Assembly: GCA_016212825.1 (NCBI GenBank)
Contig: JACRDS010000028.1
Location: 1 to 33,069, forward strand
Origin: Elusimicrobiota bacterium
GTDB taxonomy: Bacteria; Elusimicrobiota; Elusimicrobia; UBA1565; UBA9628
Length of the DNA stretch: 33,069 nt
Direction: 5' to 3'
The notes under the pieces are model-generated. The model saw nothing but the letters and a program-made list of their open reading frames with translations, was not told the origin of the DNA and searched no databases. Shown here piece by piece: positions 4,696-19,577 of the stretch (within the stretch, counting starts at the first letter, position 1; each line of letters opens with the position of its first letter). The translations under genes and the position numbers were made by a program.

Positions 4696-5214
4696 CTATA
4701 TCTTCCCGGCCAGAAGCGGCGGCAAGGCGAACACGCGCGTCCCCGCGTCCTTGTCCAGGAGATAGAGGGCCTTCTCATCCTCCAGGCGCTGGGCCTGGCG
4801 CAGCATGGCATCGGCGCTGGCCTCCTCCTCCACCTGCTCGGCCACGAACCACTCCAGGGCCTGCTTGGTGGCGTGGTCGCGCAACTGCACGGCCAGATCC
4901 GCGATCGCGTGGATGGAGGCGGTCACGACCCGCTCGTGCGCTACGACCGCCTTGAAGATGTCGGTCGCAGACTTAAACTTGGGCGGCGGAGCGTCTATCG
5001 CTCCCAGGACAGGCTGGACGCCTTTCTCGCAGAGGTAGTTGAAGAAGATCAGCGCGTGACAACTCTCCTCCTGCGCCTGCACCCGCATCCACTTGGCCAG
5101 CCCGGGCAGGACCTGCTCCTCGAACCAGCCCGCCATGGCCAGGTAGAGGTAGGCCGAATAGAACTCCTTGACGACCTGCTCGTTGAGCGCCTTCTCCAGC
5201 TTCTTATCCAGCAT
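4696..5214 (-). CDS. ftnA: Ferritin (bacterial non-haem type)
   Basis: The 172-residue product has the length and four-helix pattern of bacterial ferritins that oxidise Fe(II) and store Fe(III) in a 24-mer shell. Ferroxidase-site residues are visible: the early NEQVVKEFYSAYLYLAMA helix, the EESCHA segment (family E-x-x-H), a Glu in AVVAHERVV and EQVEEEA in the last core helix. The Cys before the His is unusual. The start at 5214 is chosen because AGGAGG lies 6 nt upstream; longer in-frame starts lack a site. The stop is followed by a T-run (4681-4686 complement) without a good hairpin, so some readthrough toward gdhA is possible. Confidence 0.93.
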   Translation of the reverse strand: MLDKKLEKALNEQVVKEFYSAYLYLAMAGWFEEQVLPGLAKWMRVQAQEESCHALIFFNYLCEKGVQPVLGAIDAPPPKFKSATDIFKAVVAHERVVTASIHAIADLAVQLRDHATKQALEWFVAEQVEEEASADAMLRQAQRLEDEKALYLLDKDAGTRVFALPPLLAGKI

Positions 5215-5388
5215 GTCGGACCTCCTTGGGGACCCTGACATATGTGCCGCTGGGGCTCGGCGCGTTACACCGCACCCCCGGTTTTAATCATAACCTTTTC
5301 CCTGGCAGGTTGCTGACGAAGCAGGGCCTTGCTCCCGTCCGATCGCCGAGCGCCTTGCAGGCAGTCCGAGGGGGATGCGACAAAACCC

Positions 5389-5455
5389 CCGACGGAGAGT
5401 CTGGGAATCTCCGTCCCGGATCTCTCGAGGTCCCCCTGGGACAGCCCCGGGGGCG
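5389..5455. terminator. Paired stem-loops between ferritin and the redox operon
   Basis: The 277-bp gap 5215-5491 holds no credible gene. It contains a perfect 8-bp hairpin (GACGGAGA 5391-5398 with TCTCCGTC 5408-5415), followed on the minus strand by GGGGGTTTT. A second hairpin pairs CCCCC 5432-5436 with GGGGG 5449-5453 with inner GGG/CCC pairs. They lie downstream of the 1232-residue redox gene on its strand and are candidate terminators. An RNA regulatory role for ferritin cannot be excluded. Confidence 0.5.
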
Positions 5456-5491
5456 GCAAACGACCGCCGGGCGCTCGCAGAACGGACTTTT

Positions 5492-8400
5492 TCAGCAGCC
5501 TGCGCGCGTCAGCGCTCCCGACTTCACCTCTTCGAGGCGCTTGCGGATGAAGCGCCCCACCAGGTCCGCCTCGGAAAGGTACTTGAGGAACTCCATGGGC
5601 TGGCGGGCCTCCTCCTCCCGGGGGACCAGCAGCCGGGCCTTGCCGCCTAAGAGCGCGCCGCCGTCCCGGTACAGCTGGCTGGCGCGGGACATCTCCCCGC
5701 GCAGCGCCTCCAGGCTCGACGTCTTGGGAAGCCCCAGGGCCTCGGCCAGACGCCCCAGGCTCTGCCAGTTCGGCGGGGGAGCGTCCTTGAGCGCCGCCGC
5801 CTTCTGCTGCTGGACCCTGCGGTCCCAGCTGGTGAGCCCACCATCGTCCTCAAGGAACAGGGCCGCGGGGAACACCACGCTCGCCGGATGCTCCGGCCCG
5901 GGCTTTATCCACTCCCCCGCCGCGATGAAGGCGCCCTTCCACGCGACGCTGGAGAGGCCGTTGTCGCCCCAGGAGAGCAGCGCCGAAAGGCTGCCCACCT
6001 CGCCGGCCTGGATGATGCCCGGGGTGGTCAGACCCGGCCAGTCCGGCAGCCCGCGCCCCCACAGGTCCTCGAGGCTCTTGCGCGCCGCGGGGTCCGAGAC
6101 CGGCCGGTAGCCGGGCAGCCAGCGGCCGTCGAGGCCGTTGTCGATGGCCCCCTGCGAGTTGCAGGCTCCGCGCAGGAGGATGAGGCCGGCGCCGGGGCGG
6201 CCCACCGCGCCTTTGAGCGCCAGCAGGTCCGCCAGGCAGGCCAGCTCGCTGTCGCGCACGCTGGCCGCGTCCACGATGACCAGAGGCCGCGCCGCCGCGA
6301 AGAACTCGTCGCGCAGCCGGTCGAGGCGATGCCGCCTGAGCCAGCCCGAAAGCTGCCGCGGCTCGCAGCGGGACATGGCCGCGCGCAGTTCCGACAGGCC
6401 CGAGACGTCCTTCCCGATCCGGGAGGAGTCCTGGGCCAGCAGGTCGGCCAGCCAGGACTCGAAGAGCGCGTAGGTATCCGGATAGGCGATGCGCAGGGTG
6501 CTGGTCGCGGCTTTGTCCACGCCCGTGGCCCGGTGGTGGTACACGTGCAGCTTGGCGCCGCTGCGGGCCGCGCTGCGCAGCATGGAGGCCACGGCCGCGA
6601 ACTCGGTCTCCGGATCGAAACCCACGGTCAGGATGAGGTCGCTGAGCAAGAGGTCCTCGCGCCGGGCCGTGGAGAAGTTCCCCCCGAAGGCCCGGGCCAG
6701 GACGTCGCATTCCCCGCCCACGCCCTTGCCGCCGAGGTGGTTGGTGCCCAGGGCCGCGCGGCCGATCTTCTGCAGGAGGTAATGGGCCTCGTTGGTCAGG
6801 CGCGCCGAGCCCAGCACGGCCGCGGACTTGCCGCCCTTGGCCTTGGCCGCCTTGGCCAGCCCTTCGGTCGCGGCCTTGAGCGCCTCGTCCCAGGAGGCCG
6901 GGCGCCAGCGCCCCTTCTCCTTGAGCATGGGCTCGCGCAGGCGGTCCGGCTGGACCAGCAGGTCGAAGCCGGCGAAACCCTTGGCGCAGACCGACATCTC
7001 GCCCTCGCCCGCCCCCATCTTGTGCTGGAGGCGCTCCACGCCCTCCTCCGACACGGCCACCTTGAGACGGCAGCCGGTGCCGCAGTAGGAGCAGACCACC
7101 TCGACCTCCTCGGTGCGCCAGGCCGGGTTCCGCTCGCCGCCGCTCTGCCGGGCCTGCAGGGCTCCGGCCGGGCAGGTCGCGATGCACTGGCCGCAGGACT
7201 TGCAGTTGACCGCCTGCAGGCTCGAGTGGAAGGCCGGGGCCACCTGGGTCACGAAGCCGCGGCCCACCAGGCCGATGGCGCCCACGCCCTGCAGCTCGGA
7301 GCAGACCCGCACGCAGCGGCCGCAGAGGATGCACTTCTCCGGGTCGCGCACGATGAAGGGGTGCTCGACGATGGGGCCGGGCTTGGTCTTCTCGCCCGCG
7401 AACTGCTCGCCGGTGGCGCCGTACTCGCCGGAGTAGCGGCGCACCAGGCAGGAGGAGACCTCCTGGCAGCCGCAGAGCAGGCAGCGTTTGGCCTCGGCGG
7501 CCGCGGTCTCGGCCGCGACCGTCTTCTGGACCTCTTCGTAGGTCCGAGCCCGGGCCGCGGCCGGCAGGACCGGGGTGGCGGCGCGCGGGAGCTTGGGGTG
7601 GCGCTCGTAGTCCTTGCGGTCGAGATCCTGCCACTTGCCCTTGGTGACGTTGAAAGGGTGTGCCTCCATGTCCACGGCTTTGCCGCTCACGCCCGCGTGC
7701 ATGGCCAGGGCGGCGCGGCGGCCGGCCGCGATGGCCTCTATGGCCGTGGCCGGGCCCGTGAAGCAGTCGCCCACGGCGAAGACGTCCTGCGCGCTCGTGC
7801 GCAAGGTCTTCTCGCTGGCCTCCAAAGTCCCCCATTTGGTGATCTTGAGGCCGTCGCCGTTGAAGCCGCCCCACCTGACCTTCTGCCCGATGGCCGCAAC
7901 CACGGAGTCGAGCGGCATCTCGAACTCGGAGCCGGGCACCGGCACGGGCCGGCGGCGTCCGGACTTGTCCGGCTCGCCGAGCTGCATCTTGATGCAGCGC
8001 ATGCCCGCCACCTTGTCCGCGCCCGTGAAGCCCAGGGGCGCGGTCAGGAAATGGAACTGGACCCCCTCCTCCTCCGCCTCGTGGATCTCCTCCGGGTTGG
8101 CCGGCATCTCCTTGCGGGAGCGGCGGTAGACGAGGGTCACGGACTGGGACCCCAGCCGCAGGGCGGTGCGCGCCGCGTCGATGGCCGTGTTGCCCCCGCC
8201 CACGATGACGGCGCGATCCCCCAATGACACCTTCTCGCCTTTGGCCGCCTTCTCCAGCAGGGCGATGCCGGACCAGACGCCCGGCCGGTCCTCGCCCTCC
8301 ATGTCCATGGCCGAACTGGCCCAGGCCCCGATGGCCACCAGGATGGCTGAGAATCCCCGCTGGCGCAGGTCGTCGAGATGGAAATCCTTGCCCCAGGTCT

Positions 8401-11988: not shown

Positions 11989-13944
11989 ATGACCATCCCG
12001 GCGTTCTGTCTCCTCTCCGCCGCGCTCCCGCTGCTCGCGCCGTCGCGCGCCGCGCCGCCGGAGTCGGAAAAGACTCGCTTCGAGGCGGGGAGGCTCCAGG
12101 CCTCCCGGCTCTGGAGGCCCGAAGACGGCTCGGCCGGAGAGTTCGAGAAGTTCTGCGCGGAGGGGTTCGCCGTGGGCGCGGACCGGGACCTGCTTTTGGA
12201 CCGCTTCGAGGCGAAGCTGGAGGCCCTGCGCGGCCACTTCACGGCCATGAGCCTGGAGCTGCGCCGCGAGCAGGACGAGGACCGCGGCGAGCTCAAGCCG
12301 GTGGACCGGCTCTTCGCCGCCTTCGCCCCGGACGCGCACTTGGCCGACGACCTGTTCAAGAGCCGCCTGGGCTTCGTGGCGGCCCTCAACTTCCCCCTCC
12401 CGAGCCTGGAAGAGACCTTGGCCGACGGCCCCGAATGGGACCGCCGGCGCTGGGCCGAGGCCCGGCTGGGCAAGGCTTTCGCCTTCCGGGTGCCGGCCGA
12501 GGTGCGCCAGAAGGTCTCCGACATCCAGTCCGCGGCCGAGGCCTACGTCTACGGCTACGACATCTACATGGACCATGTCGTGGGCGGCGACGGCAAGCCT
12601 CTCTTCCCTTCTGGTCTCAAGCTGATCTCGCACTGGGGCTTGAGGGACCACATCCGCGCCTTGTACGCGGACCCGAAGGGACTGCCGCTCCAGAAGCTGA
12701 TCCTGACCGTCATGGAGCGGATCATCAGCCAGGACATCCCGAAGGCGGCGGTGGCGGGCGAAGACCACCTCTGGGACCCGGCCAAGAACTCCCTTGATGG
12801 GAAGCCGGCCGAGCGCGAACCGGACACGCGCTACGAGACCCTCCTTTCCCTCTTCCGCGCCGCGCGGCTGGAGGACCCCTACTATCCGGGCTATCCGACC
12901 TTGATCGACCGGACCTTCCGCCTGCAGAGGGAGATGTCCGAGACCGAGGTGGAGGGCCTGCTCAAGGGTCTGCTGGAAGCCCCGGCGAGCAGGACGGCGG
13001 CGGCTTTGGTGAGGAAGCGGCTGGGCCGCAAGCTCCTTCCTTTCGACATCTGGTACGAGGGCTTCAAGCCGCCCAAGGGGATGCCGCTGGAGCAGCTCGA
13101 CGCTTTGGTCAGGAAGAGGTATCCGACCGCGGAGGCCTTCAAGGACGACATCCCGAACATCCTCATCAAGCTGGGCTTCGCGCCGGAGACGGCGCTCTTC
13201 CTCGCCCTGCGCATCGAGGTGGACGCGGCGCGGGGCGCGGGACACGCGGCGGGGCCGGACATGAAGAAGGACGTCTCCCACCTGCGCACCCGGGTGGGCA
13301 AGGACGGGATGGATTATCAGGGCTTCAACGTGGCCATGCACGAGCTGGGCCACTGCGTGGAGCAGACCTTCTCCATGCAGAGGGTGGACCATTACTTGCT
13401 CAGCGGGGTGCCCAACAACGCTTTCACGGAGGGTTTCGCCTTCGTGTTCCAGGCGCGGGATCTGGAGGTGCTGGGGCTCAAGAGACCGGACGCGAAGGCC
13501 GCGGCCCTGAAGGACTTGGATGACTTCTGGTCGGCACGGGAGATCGCGGGCGTGGCTTTGGTGGAGATGCGGACCTGGCGCTGGATGTACGAGCATCCGG
13601 AGGCCAAGGCGGCCGAGCTGCGCGAGACGATGGTGGGCATCGCCAGGGACGTGTGGAACAAGTACTACGCGCCGGCTTTCGGGGTGAAGGATTCGCCGAT
13701 CCTGGCGATCTACGCGCACATGTTCTACTACAGCCTCTACATCCCGAACTATCCGCTGGGGCACCTGATCGCGTTCCAGGTGGAGGACTACTTCAAGACG
13801 CACGCCCTGGACACCGAGATGGAGCGGTTGTGCCGCATCGGCAGCGTGACGCCGGCGGAGTGGATGCGGCAGGCGGTGGGCGGGCCGATCTCGGCTCAGC
13901 CGATGGTCAAGGCCGCGGAGAAGGCGCTGGCTTCTATACGCTGA
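11989..13944 (+). CDS. Secreted gluzincin-type zinc metallopeptidase (HExxH)
   Basis: The 651-residue protein has an N-terminal signal-like stretch (FCLLSAALPLLAPSRAA) and is probably exported. The zinc motif is HELGH at 451-455 within NVAMHELGHCVEQ. A likely third zinc ligand is Glu481 in NNAFTEGFAFVF, 26 residues later. This arrangement and the helical C-terminus recall M3/M32-type oligopeptidases, but the overall sequence is not one I can place in a named family. GGAGG precedes ATG 11989. The gene is divergent from the redox operon and appears to be a single transcription unit. No pro-domain or cell-wall-binding domain is evident. Metallopeptidase activity is well supported, the substrate is not. 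Confidence 0.75.
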   Translation: MTIPAFCLLSAALPLLAPSRAAPPESEKTRFEAGRLQASRLWRPEDGSAGEFEKFCAEGFAVGADRDLLLDRFEAKLEALRGHFTAMSLELRREQDEDRGELKPVDRLFAAFAPDAHLADDLFKSRLGFVAALNFPLPSLEETLADGPEWDRRRWAEARLGKAFAFRVPAEVRQKVSDIQSAAEAYVYGYDIYMDHVVGGDGKPLFPSGLKLISHWGLRDHIRALYADPKGLPLQKLILTVMERIISQDIPKAAVAGEDHLWDPAKNSLDGKPAEREPDTRYETLLSLFRAARLEDPYYPGYPTLIDRTFRLQREMSETEVEGLLKGLLEAPASRTAAALVRKRLGRKLLPFDIWYEGFKPPKGMPLEQLDALVRKRYPTAEAFKDDIPNILIKLGFAPETALFLALRIEVDAARGAGHAAGPDMKKDVSHLRTRVGKDGMDYQGFNVAMHELGHCVEQTFSMQRVDHYLLSGVPNNAFTEGFAFVFQARDLEVLGLKRPDAKAAALKDLDDFWSAREIAGVALVEMRTWRWMYEHPEAKAAELRETMVGIARDVWNKYYAPAFGVKDSPILAIYAHMFYYSLYIPNYPLGHLIAFQVEDYFKTHALDTEMERLCRIGSVTPAEWMRQAVGGPISAQPMVKAAEKALASIR

Positions 13945-13975
13945 CGTCTACTTGGCGCCGCGAATCCCGGCTCCC

Positions 13976-13988
13976 ATGATATACTCAT
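13976..13988 (+). promoter_or_regulatory. Candidate -10 region and palindrome before the 45-residue ORF
   Basis: ATGA-TATAC-TCAT forms a short inverted repeat that contains TATACT (13980-13985), a plausible -10. Its arms match the core of the larger palindrome at 14885-14902, but the spacer is 5 rather than 6 nt. A convincing -35 at 16-18 nt spacing is absent. Confidence 0.35.
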
Positions 13989-14014
13989 ATAGGCGCTTTA
14001 TCGCCGGAGGCCCC

Positions 14015-14152
14015 ATGCCAGAGAACCTTCCCCCCTCAGAGGACCAAGACCAGCTCGAAGCAGCTGAGACATCGGCCGCCATCGGCCACATGGGGATCGG
14101 CAGCGATGCGATGAAAAGTTTCGCTAAAGACGCAGTCTGGTCTAAGAACTAG
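14015..14152 (+). CDS. Small 45-residue protein of unknown function
   Basis: The frame starts at ATG 14015 with GGAGG 4 nt upstream and a TATACT box about 30 nt upstream. The product is acidic at the N-terminus (PENLPPSEDQDQLEAAE) and ends with DAMKSFAKDAVWSKN. There is no signal peptide, membrane segment or Cys. Its GC content is below that of its neighbours. It is convergent with the Crp-like gene, and both stop codons lie within one CTAG at 14149-14152. No family is recognised. It may be a true small protein, or a peptide connected with the regulator and repeat protein next to it. Confidence 0.5.
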   Translation: MPENLPPSEDQDQLEAAETSAAIGHMGIGSDAMKSFAKDAVWSKN

Positions 14153-14877
14153 ACGCCCGACCGCCGGCCGCGCACCCGCCGCATCTTCTTCCGGCCGTTC
14201 CGACCCCGCACGTGCGCCGCGATGGCGGCCGGGTCCTTGATGAGCAGGCTGCCGCTGGCCGTCGCCAGCCAGCCGTGCCTGCGGAAAGCGGCCAACACCC
14301 GGAACACCGTCTCGATGGTCGTCCCCACCTGACGCGCGATCTCCTTGCGCGTCAGAGGAACCTTGGCCCCGTGCAGGAGGAAGGCCCGGTGCAGGGCTGC
14401 CGCCACCCGGTACTCGGCCGGCTCCTGGCTCAGCCCCAGCAGCTTCTGCAGGAAAGAGAGCCGGTCCGCGCAGAGCCGGCAGGCCTCGCGCGCCAACGCC
14501 GGGTTGAGCCCCAGCAGCTCGTCGATGACAGAGTCCGGCACGCGCAAGGCCGCCACCGGCCCCGCCGCCACGGCCGTGCAGGGATAGAAACCCCGCTCGC
14601 CGCCCAAGCGGCAGAACAATCCGAAGGCCTGCCCCTTTTCCAGGGATTCGATCTCCATCGGCCGGGCGTCGCTCGACTGCACCACCACCGAGACTTTGCC
14701 GGAGCGCACCAGCCAGGAATGCGCGGCCCGGTCCCCCTCGCTGAAGATGACCTCGCCCGGAGCGAAGCGCTGCGGCTGCAGCACCCGGGCCAGGGCCGAG
14801 CGGGCCGGCTCCGGCAAGGAGCCGAAGAGCGGTGTGGCGCCCAGGAACCGGGCCAGAGAGGCGGTCGCGGACTCCAT
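14149..14877 (-). CDS. Crp/Fnr-family transcription regulator
   Basis: The 242-residue protein has a cyclic-nucleotide-binding-like beta-roll (about 10-125), a long dimer helix and a C-terminal winged helix. The recognition region reads LTRKEIARQVGTTIETVFRVL, keeping the Glu and Arg that contact the TGA part of half-sites in CRP and FNR. The N-terminus lacks the Cys cluster of FNR, and the cAMP-contact motif of CRP (RSAT-like) is not evident, so the signal is unknown. The start is ATG 14877. Directly upstream is the perfect palindrome GTATGA-N6-TCATAC, which has the expected TGA half-sites. The regulator therefore probably controls itself and the divergent His-Xaa-Ser repeat gene. Confidence 0.9.
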   Translation of the reverse strand: MESATASLARFLGATPLFGSLPEPARSALARVLQPQRFAPGEVIFSEGDRAAHSWLVRSGKVSVVVQSSDARPMEIESLEKGQAFGLFCRLGGERGFYPCTAVAAGPVAALRVPDSVIDELLGLNPALAREACRLCADRLSFLQKLLGLSQEPAEYRVAAALHRAFLLHGAKVPLTRKEIARQVGTTIETVFRVLAAFRRHGWLATASGSLLIKDPAAIAAHVRGRNGRKKMRRVRGRRSGV

Positions 14878-14884
14878 GGGACCA

Positions 14885-14902
14885 GTATGACATATATCAT
14901 AC
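14885..14902. promoter_or_regulatory. Palindromic operator (Crp/Fnr-type) between regulator and repeat gene
   Basis: GTATGA (14885-14890) and TCATAC (14897-14902) form perfect arms around a 6-nt spacer, the spacing of CRP sites, with TGA half-site cores. Its centre (14893.5) is 41.5 nt before the start expected from the -10 box TAAACT at 14923-14928. The site is 8 nt from the regulator's start codon, so it could also repress that gene. Confidence 0.7.
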
Positions 14903-14922
14903 CGGTCCGGCGCATCGCCCCT

Positions 14923-14928
14923 TAAACT
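14923..14928 (+). promoter_or_regulatory. -10 box of the His-Xaa-Ser repeat gene
   Basis: TAAACT lies 29 nt before the ATG at 14958. The hexamer at -35 (TACCGG with 17-nt spacing) is far from consensus and abuts the palindrome. That is the usual form of an activator-dependent class II promoter. Confidence 0.5.
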
Positions 14929-14957
14929 ATCGCGTCGGCCGCGGCACAGGGGGGCGC

Positions 14958-15380
14958 ATGGGCAAAGGCAAGGAGATCGTCCCTAAGATCAAGAAGGACA
15001 TTTCCCGGTTCCTGACCAGCGAGGAAGGCAAGATCCTCAAGAAGGACGTGGTCAAAGCCGCCGCGGTGCTGGGTATCGTAGGCGCGGCCATGATGCGCGC
15101 CGAGGACCTGCTGGCCCAGGTGGAGCACACCAACGCCCTGCACAACTCCGGGGCCAGCCAGCCCTCGCACGTGAGCCACTCCTCGCACGCCAGCCACTCC
15201 TCGCACGGCAGCCACGGCTCCCACGGCTCGCACGGCAGCCACGGCTCCCACGGCTCGCACGGCAGCCACGGCTCCCACGGCAGCCACGGCTCCCACGGCA
15301 GCCACGGCTCCCACGGCAGTCATGGCTCCCACGGCAGCCACGGCTCCCACGGCAGCCACGGCTCCCACGGCCAGTGGTGA
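14958..15380 (+). CDS. His-Xaa-Ser repeat protein (HxsA-like)
   Basis: The 140-residue product has a basic N-terminus (MGKGKEIVPKIKKDISRF), an Ala-rich hydrophobic stretch (VVKAAAVLGIVGAAMM), then AEDLLAQVEHTNALHNSG, and ends in 23 consecutive Ser-His-X triplets followed by QW. Nineteen of the X residues are Gly. This is the hallmark of HxsA, the presumed substrate of the His-Xaa-Ser system, in which radical-SAM proteins HxsB and HxsC are thought to modify the repeat. No hxsBCD genes are in the window, so the link rests on the repeat alone. A simple metal-binding role for the His tract is the main alternative. ATG 14958 has a G-rich ribosome site. The gene is divergent from the Crp-like regulator and shares its palindrome. 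Confidence 0.72.
   Translation: MGKGKEIVPKIKKDISRFLTSEEGKILKKDVVKAAAVLGIVGAAMMRAEDLLAQVEHTNALHNSGASQPSHVSHSSHASHSSHGSHGSHGSHGSHGSHGSHGSHGSHGSHGSHGSHGSHGSHGSHGSHGSHGSHGSHGQW
15165..15371 (+). repeat. In-frame tandem repeat encoding (Ser-His-X)23
   Basis: The 207-bp tract is an exact 9-nt codon periodicity. Serine codons alternate AGC/TCC with occasional TCG, giving 18-nt and 27-nt higher-order units. The pattern suggests expansion by recent unit duplication, and the first four triplets (X = V, S, A, S) are the oldest-looking ones. Confidence 0.95.
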
Positions 15381-15388
15381 GCCCCCGG

Positions 15389-16009
15389 CTAGACTGAGGC
15401 GAGAGGCTGCGCCTTCGCTGCGACCGGGGCGGCGCCGCGCTTGGGGCGGGCCGGCAGGGCCTTCTCGGCGGGCTGCGGCTTGGGTGCGGGCTTGACCTTG
15501 TCGATGACCTGGCCGGCGCAGAGCCGTCCCGTCACCCCGCTCTGGAAGGAGAACCGGTCCTCGGAAAGCGGGCCGCCCAAAGCCTTCTCGATGCGGGCCT
15601 TGTGGGGCGCCCAGGTTTTCTCGTGCAGGTCGCCGAAGGGATAGACCGCCAGGAAGACCGCGGCCCGGTCCTGGCCCCGGCCCTTGCGCAGGCGCTTGAT
15701 GAGCTTGCGCAGGTCCTTGACGTCGTCGGCCAGGCTCTTCGGGCCGGAGCCGGTCCCCGCGAAGGCGAAATCCGTGGGCAGGCTCACGGCTTCGACCAGC
15801 CAGCCGCCGGCGCGCACCGCGGCCCGGCCTTTGGGCAGCCTGAAGGAAGGCTCCACCTCGTCCCGCTCGGCCAGGATGGCGGAGAGCTCCACCCGGAGCC
15901 AGCCGTCCATGCCCAGCCGGCCGCGCGAGAACGCCGGCATCGCCCGGTGCTCCCAGAAGCGGCGCTTGAGCTCGTTGCCGACGAAGACCCGCAGTTCCTC
16001 GAACTCCAC
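15389..16009 (-). CDS. Hypothetical protein linked to glgB
   Basis: The 206-residue frame starts at GTG 16009, 2 nt after the glgB stop, with GAGGGGAAG upstream as a ribosome site. The body is a mixed alpha/beta sequence (GWLRVELSAILAERDEVEPS, LPTDFAFAGTG, a Lys/Arg-rich helix DLRKLIKRLRKGRGQDRAAV, FLAVYPFGDLHEKTW). The C-terminal 50 residues are a Pro/Ala/Lys-rich tail (PAPKPQPAEKALPARPKRGAAP). No signal peptide or membrane segment is present and I do not recognise the family. Coupling to glgB suggests a glycogen-related or simply co-expressed function. The same frame stays open upstream through glgB, but that part is antiparallel-free shadow sequence and glgB is clearly the real gene there. 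Confidence 0.65.
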   Translation of the reverse strand: MEFEELRVFVGNELKRRFWEHRAMPAFSRGRLGMDGWLRVELSAILAERDEVEPSFRLPKGRAAVRAGGWLVEAVSLPTDFAFAGTGSGPKSLADDVKDLRKLIKRLRKGRGQDRAAVFLAVYPFGDLHEKTWAPHKARIEKALGGPLSEDRFSFQSGVTGRLCAGQVIDKVKPAPKPQPAEKALPARPKRGAAPVAAKAQPLASV

Positions 16010-16011
16010 GG

Positions 16012-17943
16012 CTACTTCCCCTCGCTCTTGAAGTAGAGCACGGACAGGGGCGGCAGGCAGATCTCCAGGGACTGCCCGTGGCCGTGCCAGGGCACGCCCT
16101 GGGCGTTGACCCCGCCCAGGTTGCCCAGGCCGGAGCCGCCGTATTCCGAGGCGTCGGAGTTGAGGACCTCGGCCCACCAGCCGCCGCGCGGCACGCCCAC
16201 GCGGTAGCTCTTGCGCGGCACGGGGGTGCAGTTCATGACCACCAGGATGAAGTCCTCCGTGGACCGCCCCTTGCGGATGAAGCTCAGCACCGAGTTGTCC
16301 GAGTCGTTGCAGTCCACCCAGGTGAAGCCCGAGGGGTCGAAGTCGCGCTCGTGGAGGGCGGGCTCGGCGCGGTAGACGCGGTTGCAGCGCTCCACCAGAC
16401 GCCGCACCCCCTCGTGGGGAGCGTAGTCGAGCTGGTGCCAGTCCAGGCTGGAGTTGTTGTCCCACTCGCGCCACTGGCCCCACTCCCCTCCCATGAACAG
16501 CAGCTTCTTGCCGGGCTGGGACCACCTGTAGCCGTACATGAGGCGCAGGTTGGCGAACTTCTGCCAGTCGTCCCCGGACATCTGGGTCAGCAGGGAGCAC
16601 TTGCCGTGCACCACCTCGTCGTGCGAGAGGGGCAGGATGAAGTTCTCGTGGAAGGCGTAGAGCATGCGGAAGGTGATGACGTTCTGGTGGTACTTGCGGT
16701 GGATGGCGTCCTTCTTCATGTAGTTGAGCGTGTCGTGCATCCAGCCCATGTCCCATTTGAAGCCGAAGCCCAGGCCGCCCACGTAGGTGGGCTTGGACAC
16801 CATGCCCCAGGCCGTGGACTCCTCCGCGTAGGTCTGCACGTCCGGGAACTGCTTGTAGACCTCCTCGTTCATCCGGCGCAGGAACCAGATGGCGTCGATG
16901 TTCTCCCGCCCGCCGTACTCGTTGGGGATCCACTCCCCGTGCTTGCGCGAGTAGTCCAGGTAGAGCATGGAGGCCACGGCGTCGACGCGGATGCCGTCGA
17001 CGTGGTACTTATCGAACCACAGCAGCGCGCTGGAGATGAGGAAGGAGCGCACCTCGTTGCGGCCGTAGTTGAAGATGAAGCTGCCCCAGTCGGGATGGAA
17101 GCCCTTGCGCCGGTCGGCGTGCTCGTAGAGGTGCGAGCCGTCGAACTGGGCCAGGCCGTGGCCGTCCGTGGCGAAATGCGAGGGCACCCAGTCCAGGATG
17201 ACGCCGATGCCCTCCTGGTGCAGGTGGTCGACCAGGTACATGAAGTCCTGGGGCGTGCCGAAGCGCGAGGTCGGGGCGAAGTAGCCGATGGACTGGTAGC
17301 CCCAGGAGCCGGAGAAGGGATGCTCCATGATGGGCAGCAGCTCCACGTGGGTGAAGCCCATGCGCCGCATGTGCGCGGCGAGCTTGGGGGCCAGCTCCCG
17401 GTAGGTCAGGGCGCGGTTGCCCTCCTCGGGCACGCGCATCCAGGACTCCAGGTGCAGCTCGTAGATGGAGACCGGGGCGTCGTGGGCGTTGCGCGCCCGG
17501 CGGTCCTTCATCCAGGCCGCGTCGTTCCACTGGTAGTCCAGGTCCCAGACCACGGAGGCGGACTTGGGCGGGATCTCGGCGTAGAAGCCCACCGGGTCGG
17601 ATTTCTCGAGCTTGGCGCCGTGCAGATGAGAGGTGATGAAATATTTGTAGGGCGCGCCCTTCTGCACGCCCGGGACGAAGCCCTCCCAGATGCCCGAGGA
17701 GCCGCGCGGATGCAGGGGATTCTTGGTCTTGCTCCACTGGTTGAAGTCGCCGATGACCGTGACCTTGCGGGCATTGGGCGCCCAGACCGCGAAGCAGACC
17801 CCCTTCTGACCGTCGTGCTCCATGAGATGCGCCCCGAGCTTGTCGTAGATGCGGAAATGGGAGCCCTCGTTGTAGAGGTAGAGGTCCTGCTCGCTGAGCC
17901 GGGACGCCGCCGGGTTCTGGGTGTTCTTCTCGATGCTGTTCAT
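16012..17943 (-). CDS. glgB: 1,4-alpha-glucan branching enzyme
   Basis: The 643-residue GH13 enzyme transfers alpha-1,4 glucan segments to alpha-1,6 branch points during glycogen synthesis. An N-terminal carbohydrate-binding domain (VCFAVWAPNARKVTVIGDFN) precedes the barrel. Catalytic regions are visible: DWVPSHFATDGHGL, GIRVDAVASMLYLDYS (nucleophile Asp), YAEESTAW (acid/base Glu) and LSHDEVVHGKCS. The length fits short bacterial GlgB. ATG 17943 is chosen because it overlaps the malQ stop as ATGA and has GAGGAG 9 nt upstream; the ATG three codons earlier sits directly on that site. It is co-transcribed with malQ and the hypothetical gene downstream. Confidence 0.97.
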   Translation of the reverse strand: MNSIEKNTQNPAASRLSEQDLYLYNEGSHFRIYDKLGAHLMEHDGQKGVCFAVWAPNARKVTVIGDFNQWSKTKNPLHPRGSSGIWEGFVPGVQKGAPYKYFITSHLHGAKLEKSDPVGFYAEIPPKSASVVWDLDYQWNDAAWMKDRRARNAHDAPVSIYELHLESWMRVPEEGNRALTYRELAPKLAAHMRRMGFTHVELLPIMEHPFSGSWGYQSIGYFAPTSRFGTPQDFMYLVDHLHQEGIGVILDWVPSHFATDGHGLAQFDGSHLYEHADRRKGFHPDWGSFIFNYGRNEVRSFLISSALLWFDKYHVDGIRVDAVASMLYLDYSRKHGEWIPNEYGGRENIDAIWFLRRMNEEVYKQFPDVQTYAEESTAWGMVSKPTYVGGLGFGFKWDMGWMHDTLNYMKKDAIHRKYHQNVITFRMLYAFHENFILPLSHDEVVHGKCSLLTQMSGDDWQKFANLRLMYGYRWSQPGKKLLFMGGEWGQWREWDNNSSLDWHQLDYAPHEGVRRLVERCNRVYRAEPALHERDFDPSGFTWVDCNDSDNSVLSFIRKGRSTEDFILVVMNCTPVPRKSYRVGVPRGGWWAEVLNSDASEYGGSGLGNLGGVNAQGVPWHGHGQSLEICLPPLSVLYFKSEGK

Positions 17944-19577
17944 TTGGTCCATCTCCTCGGGCCCCGTCCATAGGCCCCGGTCATCAAAGCCAGCCTTCCG
18001 GCCACCTCGGCGGTGAGCGCGCCGGGCGCCAGGCGCCACTGCCAGTTGTTCTCGGTGGTCCCGGGCAGGTTCATGCGCGCCTCGGAGCCCAGGCCGAGCA
18101 GGTCCTGCGCCAGGACGATGCAGGTGTCGGCCGGGCTCTTCATCGCCGCCCGGATCATGTCCCAGTGTATCTCCACGCCGCTGGAGCCCAGGTAGCGCAG
18201 GGCGTTCTCGCGCTCCAGGCGCACCTGCTCCGCGGTGCGGGTGCCGGACTTATCGCCGAGGTTGCGGAACCAGCCCGCCACCGTGTCGTTGTCGTGCGTG
18301 CCGGTGTAGACCGCGCAGCGCTTGGGGAACTTGTGCGGCTGCCGACCTTCGTCCCAGTCCCAGAAGGAGAACTGCAGCACCCGCATGCCCGGGAACCGGA
18401 GGCGGTCGCGCAGGGCCTCGACCTCCCGGGTGAGGGTGCCGAGGTCCTCGGCGATGATCTCGATCCCGGGCGGGTCCTGTCGGCCCGGTGTCCCGTCGGC
18501 GCCTGTCGGCGCCGCCGGGATGCCCTCCGGGCCGCCACCCGCCCTTGGGTCGTTGAACGCCCGAAGGACGGTGGCGAAGAAGTCCTCGCCCGGGGCCGGC
18601 ACCCAGCGGCCCCGGACCGCGTCCTTGTCCCCGGCCGGGATCTCCCAGTAGTTGTGGAAGCCGATGAAATGGTCGAGGCGCACGACGTCGAAGCGGGCCA
18701 GGGTCGCCCGGAACCGGGAGAGCCACCAGGAATAGCCGTCCGCCTTCATGACGTCCCAGCGGTAGAGAGGGTTGCCCCAGAGCTGGCCCTTCTGGCTGAA
18801 ATAGTCGGGAGGCACGCCGGCCACCACCGTGGGCCGCCCGTCCGCGTCCAGGGAGAAGAGCTCCGGATGGGCCCAGACGTCGACGCTGTCGGCGGCCACG
18901 AAGATGGGGATGTCGCCGATGAGCCCCAGGCCGATCTTGGCGCAGTAGTCCTTGAGCTCGCCCCACTGCTTGTGGAAGAGGAACTGCAGGAACTGGTGGT
19001 AGCGGATGCGCGGCCCCATCGCCTGCCGGGCGCGCTCCAGGGCCGCGGGGTGGCGCGAGCGCAGGCCCGGCTCCCACTCCACCCAGGGGCGGCCCTGGTG
19101 GGATTCCTTGGCCGCGCAGAACAGAGCGTAGTCGTCGAGCCAGGGCTTCTGCTCCTCGCGGAAGGCGGCGAAAGCCGCCGCCGCGGCCGGGTCGGCGCGC
19201 CGCTCGAAGATGTCGAAGGCCTTGGCGAAGCGCGACTCCTTGAAGCGCTCGGCCGAGGCGTAGTGCACCCGGTCCCTGACCTGCCCCCGCAGGGACTTGA
19301 GGTCCCCAGGCTCCAGAAGCCCGTCCTGGCACAGGCGGTCCAGGCACAGGAGCAGGGGGTTGCCGGCGAAGGCGGAGGAGGAGAAGTAGGGAGAATGCCC
19401 GTGTCCGGTGGGCCCGATGGGCAGCATCTGCCACCAGGTCTGGCCGCAGGCGGCCAGGAAATCCGCGAAGGCGAAGGATTCCCGTCCGATGTCCCCGATC
19501 CCGTGCGGGCCCGGCAAAGAGCTCGGGTGGAGGAGCACGCCGGAGGAGCGCCGGCTCAGCGTGGGCTTCTCGATCAT
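17940..19577 (-). CDS. malQ: 4-alpha-glucanotransferase (amylomaltase)
   Basis: The 545-residue GH77 enzyme transfers maltodextrin segments between chains. Motifs include the N-terminal GVLLHPSSLPGPHGIGD, ACGQTWWQMLPIGPTG, YSWWLSRFRATLARFDVVRLDHF (nucleophile Asp), IIAEDLGTL (acid/base Glu) and YTGTHDNDT. A Gly/Pro-rich insertion of about 25 residues lies just before IIAEDLG, where family members have a short loop. The gene starts an operon with glgB. A sigma-70-type promoter lies upstream (CTGACA at 19612-19617, TAGAAT at 19590-19595, 16-nt spacing). Together the genes serve glycogen build-up and turnover. Confidence 0.96.
   Translation of the reverse strand: MIEKPTLSRRSSGVLLHPSSLPGPHGIGDIGRESFAFADFLAACGQTWWQMLPIGPTGHGHSPYFSSSAFAGNPLLLCLDRLCQDGLLEPGDLKSLRGQVRDRVHYASAERFKESRFAKAFDIFERRADPAAAAAFAAFREEQKPWLDDYALFCAAKESHQGRPWVEWEPGLRSRHPAALERARQAMGPRIRYHQFLQFLFHKQWGELKDYCAKIGLGLIGDIPIFVAADSVDVWAHPELFSLDADGRPTVVAGVPPDYFSQKGQLWGNPLYRWDVMKADGYSWWLSRFRATLARFDVVRLDHFIGFHNYWEIPAGDKDAVRGRWVPAPGEDFFATVLRAFNDPRAGGGPEGIPAAPTGADGTPGRQDPPGIEIIAEDLGTLTREVEALRDRLRFPGMRVLQFSFWDWDEGRQPHKFPKRCAVYTGTHDNDTVAGWFRNLGDKSGTRTAEQVRLERENALRYLGSSGVEIHWDMIRAAMKSPADTCIVLAQDLLGLGSEARMNLPGTTENNWQWRLAPGALTAEVAGRLALMTGAYGRGPRRWTK

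Follow-up and report, generated by a model that had tools for sequence, protein, structure and literature searches.

The FNR operator reads TTGAT-N4-ATCAA, and the CRP site carries TGTGA. We know of no function assigned to the His-Xaa-Ser (Hxs) system, which comprises an HxsA precursor, the radical SAM maturase HxsB and HxsD. Sections of two reports name the hxs genes without treating control of the system (PMC9062424, PMC8446631), and part of a third account places the operator centre at -41.5 at the class II position (PMC5957442).

The locus described here lies in a 33,069-nucleotide stretch of an Elusimicrobiota genome (the window), where a Crp/Fnr-type regulator gene (P0001) and a His-Xaa-Ser precursor gene diverge from a palindrome. 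It resembles the FNR, FixK and ANR systems (E. coli FNR and others) in its Crp/Fnr domains, its palindrome with TGA cores, its class II spacing, and the genes for respiratory oxidases and redox proteins that follow the motif. It differs from FNR in its operator, TATGAY-N4-RTCATA, and in lacking the N-terminal cysteine cluster of the 4Fe-4S type, the first cysteine of P0001 being residue 89. The protein scores below the cut-offs of both the FixK model (46.7 bits, cut-off 300) and the Fnr model (32.1 bits, cut-off 228), as it does for the CRP model (33.8 bits, cut-off 266). The helix of P0001 carries E and R at what we take to be the E181 and R185 positions of CRP; however, it has Ile at the R180 position, the residues that hold cAMP are absent by alignment, and the site reads TATGA. 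Further likenesses to E. coli CRP are the domain order, an 18-bp site with a 6-bp centre and the class II position of -41.5, as given in the relevant part of PMC5957442. The Hxs system is represented by HxsA4 in the window and by HxsB and HxsD on another contig (C95), but differs in that the window hxsA stands alone behind a putative Crp-type promoter, with no maturase gene found beside it. No description of the regulator clade was found in the literature searched, nor any paper there pairing TATGAC and GTCATA with Crp.

In our best reading, the gene in the window encodes an orphan HxsA precursor and is activated by an FNR-like redox or oxygen regulator of Elusimicrobia. This reading rests on comparison of motif, spacing, co-occurrence, gene content and duplication, from which we infer binding, start site, direction of regulation, signal, autorepression and maturation.

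Regulator, candidate operator and predicted promoter in the window

P0001 (14149..14877, minus strand; 242 aa, helix IETVFR) belongs to a clade marked by Cys89, Cys100 and Cys136, and its start codon lies 7 bp from the palindrome. Its N-terminal cNMP-binding-type domain (PF00027, 55.2 bits, cut-off 27.5) and C-terminal Crp-type HTH (PF13545, 46.3 bits, cut-off 27) place it in the Crp/Fnr superfamily. The orphan hxsA4 gene (14958..15380, plus strand) encodes a 140-aa His-Xaa-Ser repeat precursor that scores 114.8 bits against NF038313 (HxsA4; cut-off 55). A preliminary description of this DNA had proposed a Crp-like regulator divergent from a His-Xaa-Ser repeat gene, and the domain and profile models confirm both identifications.

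The palindromic operator candidate GTATGA-CATATA-TCATAC (GTATGACATATATCATAC; 14885..14902, no strand assigned), for which the clade consensus is CTATGAY-N4-RTCATAG, has two perfect 6-nt arms, as had been claimed, and its centre pairs at two of three positions, making 16 of the 18 bases symmetric. Scanning the window with up to two mismatches returned one palindrome match, against a shuffle mean of 0.12 and at least one match in 11 of 100 shuffles. The genome scan for GTATGA-N6-TCATAC that the preliminary description had proposed recovered the window copy as the single exact occurrence in the organism's own genome (3,557,477 bases; assembly 85.74% complete).

Downstream of the palindrome, a 20-nt spacer with no recognisable -35 (14903..14922, plus strand) leads to the -10-like hexamer TAAACT of the hxsA promoter (14923..14928, plus strand), whose position fits the conserved spacing described below, a gap of 20 being the peak in both spacing tests. 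The -35 candidates at spacers of 16-18 are poor (ACCGGT, TACCGG or ATACCG), and a sigma-70 promoter scan of 13900-15500 found none, in agreement with the weak -35 noted earlier. TAAACT starts exactly 20 nt past the palindrome, and a transcript beginning at the start predicted from this hexamer (14935, plus strand) would put the operator centre, 14893.5, at -41.5; the arithmetic first given for this position is therefore correct. The 20-nt gap and the weak or absent -35 are those of a class II Crp-type promoter, an assignment made on the spacing to the -10 only. A Shine-Dalgarno-like AGGGGGG (14948..14954, plus strand) probably precedes translation of hxsA. Within the operator, TATGAT (14896..14901, minus strand) may be the -10 of the regulator gene, in which case autorepression would be possible.

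Operator-to-promoter spacing in related genomes

The comparison drew on a family set of 44 genomes and a wider search of 235 genomes of the class, with many loci taken because they contained regulators or hxs genes. The 44 family genomes together contain 62 exact copies of TATGA-N6-TCATA, compared with 13 of the reversed pattern. When 55 distinct sites of the 62 were read outward both ways (104 directions), 24 directions showed a -10-like hexamer (A at position 2, T at position 6, at least four of six matches) at a gap of precisely 20, compared with 1.4 in shuffles, and every other gap accounted for at most six. Because G037, itself among the 24 directions, had prompted the idea of a constant spacing, the analysis was repeated outside the family. 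There the gap of 20 was found in 16 of 73 directions against 1.5 expected; gaps of 13, 15 and 32 also exceeded 3 sd (7, 6 and 6 matches), far under the 16 at gap 20. This strong over-representation at relatives' sites supports the earlier suggestion of a CRP-type site at the class II position.

A consensus was built from 22 promoter directions at 20 sites, selected for a -10 at gap 20, and reads CTATGAY-N4-RTCATAG, 20 nt, TAtaCT. The first -10 position was T in all 22 directions, though the selection did not demand T.

The motif follows orthologues of the regulator

Orthologues of P0001 were identified in 21 of the 44 family genomes (19 full-length, forming alignment A1, and partial ones in G011 and G017) and, among the 191 other genomes of the class, in 13. 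Each of them scored above 186 bits, with the next matches at or below 168 bits. At E 1e-40 an orthologue is absent from the other six genomes of the window's genus, and the exact regulator-hxsA pair thus rests on one genome.

Within the family, TATGAY-N4-RTCATA occurs at 40 sites spread over 15 of the 21 orthologue genomes versus six sites in five of 23 others (Fisher 0.002), the exact site being missing from the remaining six orthologue genomes. Outside the family, where 40 of the 191 genomes were scanned, 39 sites were found in 13 of 13 orthologue genomes versus nine in six of 27 others (Fisher 2e-6), and control matches numbered three across the 40 genomes. Genomes without a detected orthologue also had a few sites, two of them with a -10 at 20 nt (G030, G031). 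In nine of the 13 outside-family genomes the regulator gene has a site no more than 50 bp away, each time at the 3' end of the gene; a strand-aware scan of the regulator's side found an exact palindrome immediately 5' of the regulator in the window only. That the motif follows the orthologues across genomes strengthens the link originally drawn between the site and its divergent regulator.

Cys89 and Cys100 are present in 34 of 34 orthologues and Cys136 in 33 of 34, and all 11 other Crp proteins compared are without Cys89 and Cys100; the three cysteines mark the clade better than the recognition helix does. The helix was rejected as a clade marker, since orthologues show ETTIR, ETAIR and RTTFR (the last in G054). 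Paralogues have ET-A-M/I-R, and one of these adjoins a CATGAC-N4-GTCATG palindrome. The preliminary description had explained the site by an ETVFRVL recognition helix; with orthologues that vary and paralogues that are similar, the helix alone does not discriminate.

When P0001 was aligned with solved Crp-type chains, Cys89 and Cys100 fell at positions that in CRP are, we assume, cyclic-nucleotide (cAMP) contacts, and all 19 A1 orthologues carry Cys at both. By a sequence test only, the Glu/Arg/Ser set of cAMP residues is absent from P0001, the aligned positions reading FG-L-F-C and F-Y-P-C-T. Since cysteines replace the cAMP contacts, cAMP is an unlikely signal; the signal may be of the thiol, metal or Fe-S type, and the cysteines of the clade suggest a sensor. 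An AlphaFold model from two sequences had a mean pLDDT of 67.5 and a poor N-terminal domain.

Genes behind the motif

The motif precedes a variety of genes in the related genomes, some of the first-gene assignments using a gap of 18-22 rather than exactly 20. COX2 is the first gene in three genomes (G033, G035, G204), and COX1 lies behind the motif in G048, where the NCBIfam ccoN match is under its cut-off. KatG (G204) is above its cut-off, and thioredoxin-reductase-like proteins (G024, G216) are under that for TrxR. Hemerythrins (G032, G046, G054), a universal stress protein (Usp; G044), P-type ATPases (G044, G047, G048) and DUF488 proteins (G028, G029, G049, G053, G218) were also found, as were, among first genes, an Rrf2 regulator and radical SAM proteins (as a group, G021, G028, G029). 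Other first genes scanned had no Pfam match.

This gene content points to oxygen or redox control of the regulon, and hxs would share its promoter type with respiratory oxidases, a catalase-peroxidase and hemerythrins. The locus had been called a small, self-contained control unit, a view that does not survive the finding that its regulator belongs to a clade spanning the class, whose motif precedes respiratory and redox genes.

The DUF488 gene follows the operator in five genomes (L137 8823-9284; L086 8553-9014, minus strand; L253 2159-2551; L254 2009-2452, minus strand; L269 5935-6360) and stands directly behind the regulator in G028, G029 and G049.

The motif and the hxs clusters

A composite model (palindrome, gap of 19-21 and -10), applied to the coding strand up to 9 kb ahead of hxsB, found a promoter there in nine of 14 genomes with both the regulator and a testable hxs cluster (G005, G006, G011, G012, G016, G019, G020, G024, G037) versus none of 13 without the regulator (Fisher 0.0006). 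The regulator-bearing genomes in which it was not found are G000, G004 (1.9 kb available), G018, G032 and G033. Among the regulator-less genomes, G002 offered only 714 bp, hxsB of G039 is split in two, and for G013 and G041 the scan covered only a second type of cluster; with these last two dropped, the count becomes none of 11 (Fisher 0.001). The second-type clusters of G024 and G037 have no composite promoter and were excluded from the count, and G001 and G017 stand outside the comparison, their upstream sequence being missing. Eight of the 13 composite promoters found lay outside the training set, and the model gave no match in 172 kb of mononucleotide-shuffled sequence. From gene order, a promoter 2.2-7.5 kb upstream probably reaches hxsB. 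In G037, where the gene calls come from a home-made gene caller, the regulator gene is directly upstream of the hxs operon and the palindrome lies at its 3' end.

At seven loci the operator's first gene before an hxs cluster encodes a protein with a ESVTLTTYYPAPSGVYTQM-type motif (L118 12599-13330; L128 7633-8589, minus strand; L126 5030-5917, minus strand; L078 2277-3044; L122 10718-11278; L133 8818-9516, minus strand; L125 8082-8636), and none of the seven has a Pfam match.

A duplicated precursor gene

The match between the hxsA genes of the window and of C95 starts one base ahead of the ATG and ends at about the stop codon. Over the first 80 codons the two differ at six synonymous and no non-synonymous positions and encode the same protein, a codon pattern pointing to recent copying or conversion, with selection acting on the protein. 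The order on C95 is hxsD and hxsB, then hxsA, then radical SAM-like genes (HxsB 531.8 bits, cut-off 370; HxsD 63.2 bits, cut-off 50), with no HxsC among the matches listed for the six C95 genes scanned. In the window hxsA does not stand beside hxsB or hxsD, and the matches listed include no HxsB place on C158. The description of the unit as self-contained fails on this point as well, the repeat protein being a duplicated precursor whose likely maturases are encoded on another contig.

The organism's own hxs operon on C95 has the promoter TTGACA-18-TATCCT, and the composite scan found no operator there. Just a two-mismatch look-alike, ATATGTCTATTCTCGTAG (L075 6750), is present at this promoter; the composite scan at 14 missed it, and it was rejected. 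Judging from these sequences, the regulator apparently acts on the added precursor copy, not on the maturation operon.

A gene for a metallo-beta-lactamase-fold protein (L075 5739-6686, minus strand) diverges from the own hxs operon; the protein is closest to AHL lactonases but far under their cut-offs. In the window, an ORF without a Pfam match (15389-16033, minus strand) lies between hxsA and glgB (16012-18039) and malQ (17940-19577).

Interpretation and alternative explanations

We consider it probable (about 0.7) that the palindrome is the site of the divergent Crp/Fnr regulator, which in a class II arrangement without a -35 would activate the orphan hxsA4 under the redox- or oxygen-type control of its clade; this estimate rests on the tests of spacing and co-occurrence. 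The divergently encoded regulator would bind the palindrome at the class II position and, once bound, switch on hxsA4 from a promoter that has no -35. The motif of its Elusimicrobia clade, CTATGAC-N4-GTCATAG, is found at the class II distance ahead of genes related to oxygen and redox, and several relatives also have it in front of genes that lead into the hxs cluster. With a TTGACA-type promoter and no site found at the own hxs operon, and a coding-sequence-only copy of hxsA under the regulator, extra precursor would be produced in response to the regulator's signal, with maturation by HxsB and HxsD encoded elsewhere. That signal would be oxygen or redox, perhaps perceived via Cys89, Cys100 and Cys136, and the arrangement likely places a His-Xaa-Ser precursor under redox or oxygen control.

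The site might instead be bound by a different Crp/Fnr paralogue, either the one encoded on C54 next to CATGACGGCCGTCATG or the one on C121, with the neighbouring regulator incidental. The genome does encode other Crp/Fnr proteins, one of which adjoins a similar palindrome whose outer arm position has C in place of T. However, CATGAC-N4-GTCATG has no match in the window at up to two mismatches, and the occurrence of the TATGAY motif tracks the P0001 orthologues of the Cys clade, with the motif lying within 50 bp of them in nine of 13 outside-family genomes, which makes binding by a paralogue improbable. We hold it equally doubtful that the palindrome is a repression operator through which the regulator shuts off both hxsA and itself at otherwise active promoters. 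With TATGAT inside it and the regulator's start codon 7 bp away, the site when occupied would block a promoter of the regulator there; yet a 20-nt spacing without a -35 is the layout of a class II activator, seen here at many sites, and a repressor site would have no need of a fixed distance of this kind.

A chance palindrome or a structural (hairpin) element without a regulator is very improbable. The single strand does fold (28 nt, -5.1 kcal/mol, z -3.0; 24 nt, -2.9 kcal/mol, z -1.7), but the palindrome is upstream of the -10 and would not be transcribed towards hxsA. Base composition predicts 0.04 exact TATGAY-N4-RTCATA matches per genome, and the same motif recurs with fixed promoter spacing in many genomes.

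A conserved regulator together with its motif would provide a handle on when the His-Xaa-Ser system is made, and a readable regulon for a phylum with few cultured members. More tentatively, and with the balance somewhat against it, this clade, of which we found no description in the literature searched, may sense oxygen, NO or thiol redox via Cys89, Cys100 and Cys136 in a former cyclic-nucleotide pocket, read TATGAC-N4-GTCATA at class II promoters and tie His-Xaa-Ser peptides to aerobic respiration, control having moved here from the hxs operon to a duplicated precursor. If true, this would involve the Hxs products in oxygen or redox physiology.

Other Crp/Fnr proteins of the genome

Candidates for a regulon within the own genome were weak and given no weight. 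One is a one-mismatch copy on C121, whose -10 at gap 20 points at a second Crp/Fnr gene; the other is a poor copy (score 13.7) before a multihaem cytochrome gene on C130. Near 30880 of C121 (G000; L156, L278), a NapC/NirT-type multihaem cytochrome gene diverges from the second Crp/Fnr gene, whose product has N-terminal cysteines, and the one-mismatch operator copy lies between the two. On C54 (G000), the palindrome CATGACGGCCGTCATG (5742-5757; L280) adjoins a regulator gene (5081-5701) with relatives at L058, L062 and L064. This paralogous Crp group, lacking the clade cysteines and found beside CATGACGGCCGTCATG-like palindromes, is perhaps a sister regulator with an operator shifted by C for T.
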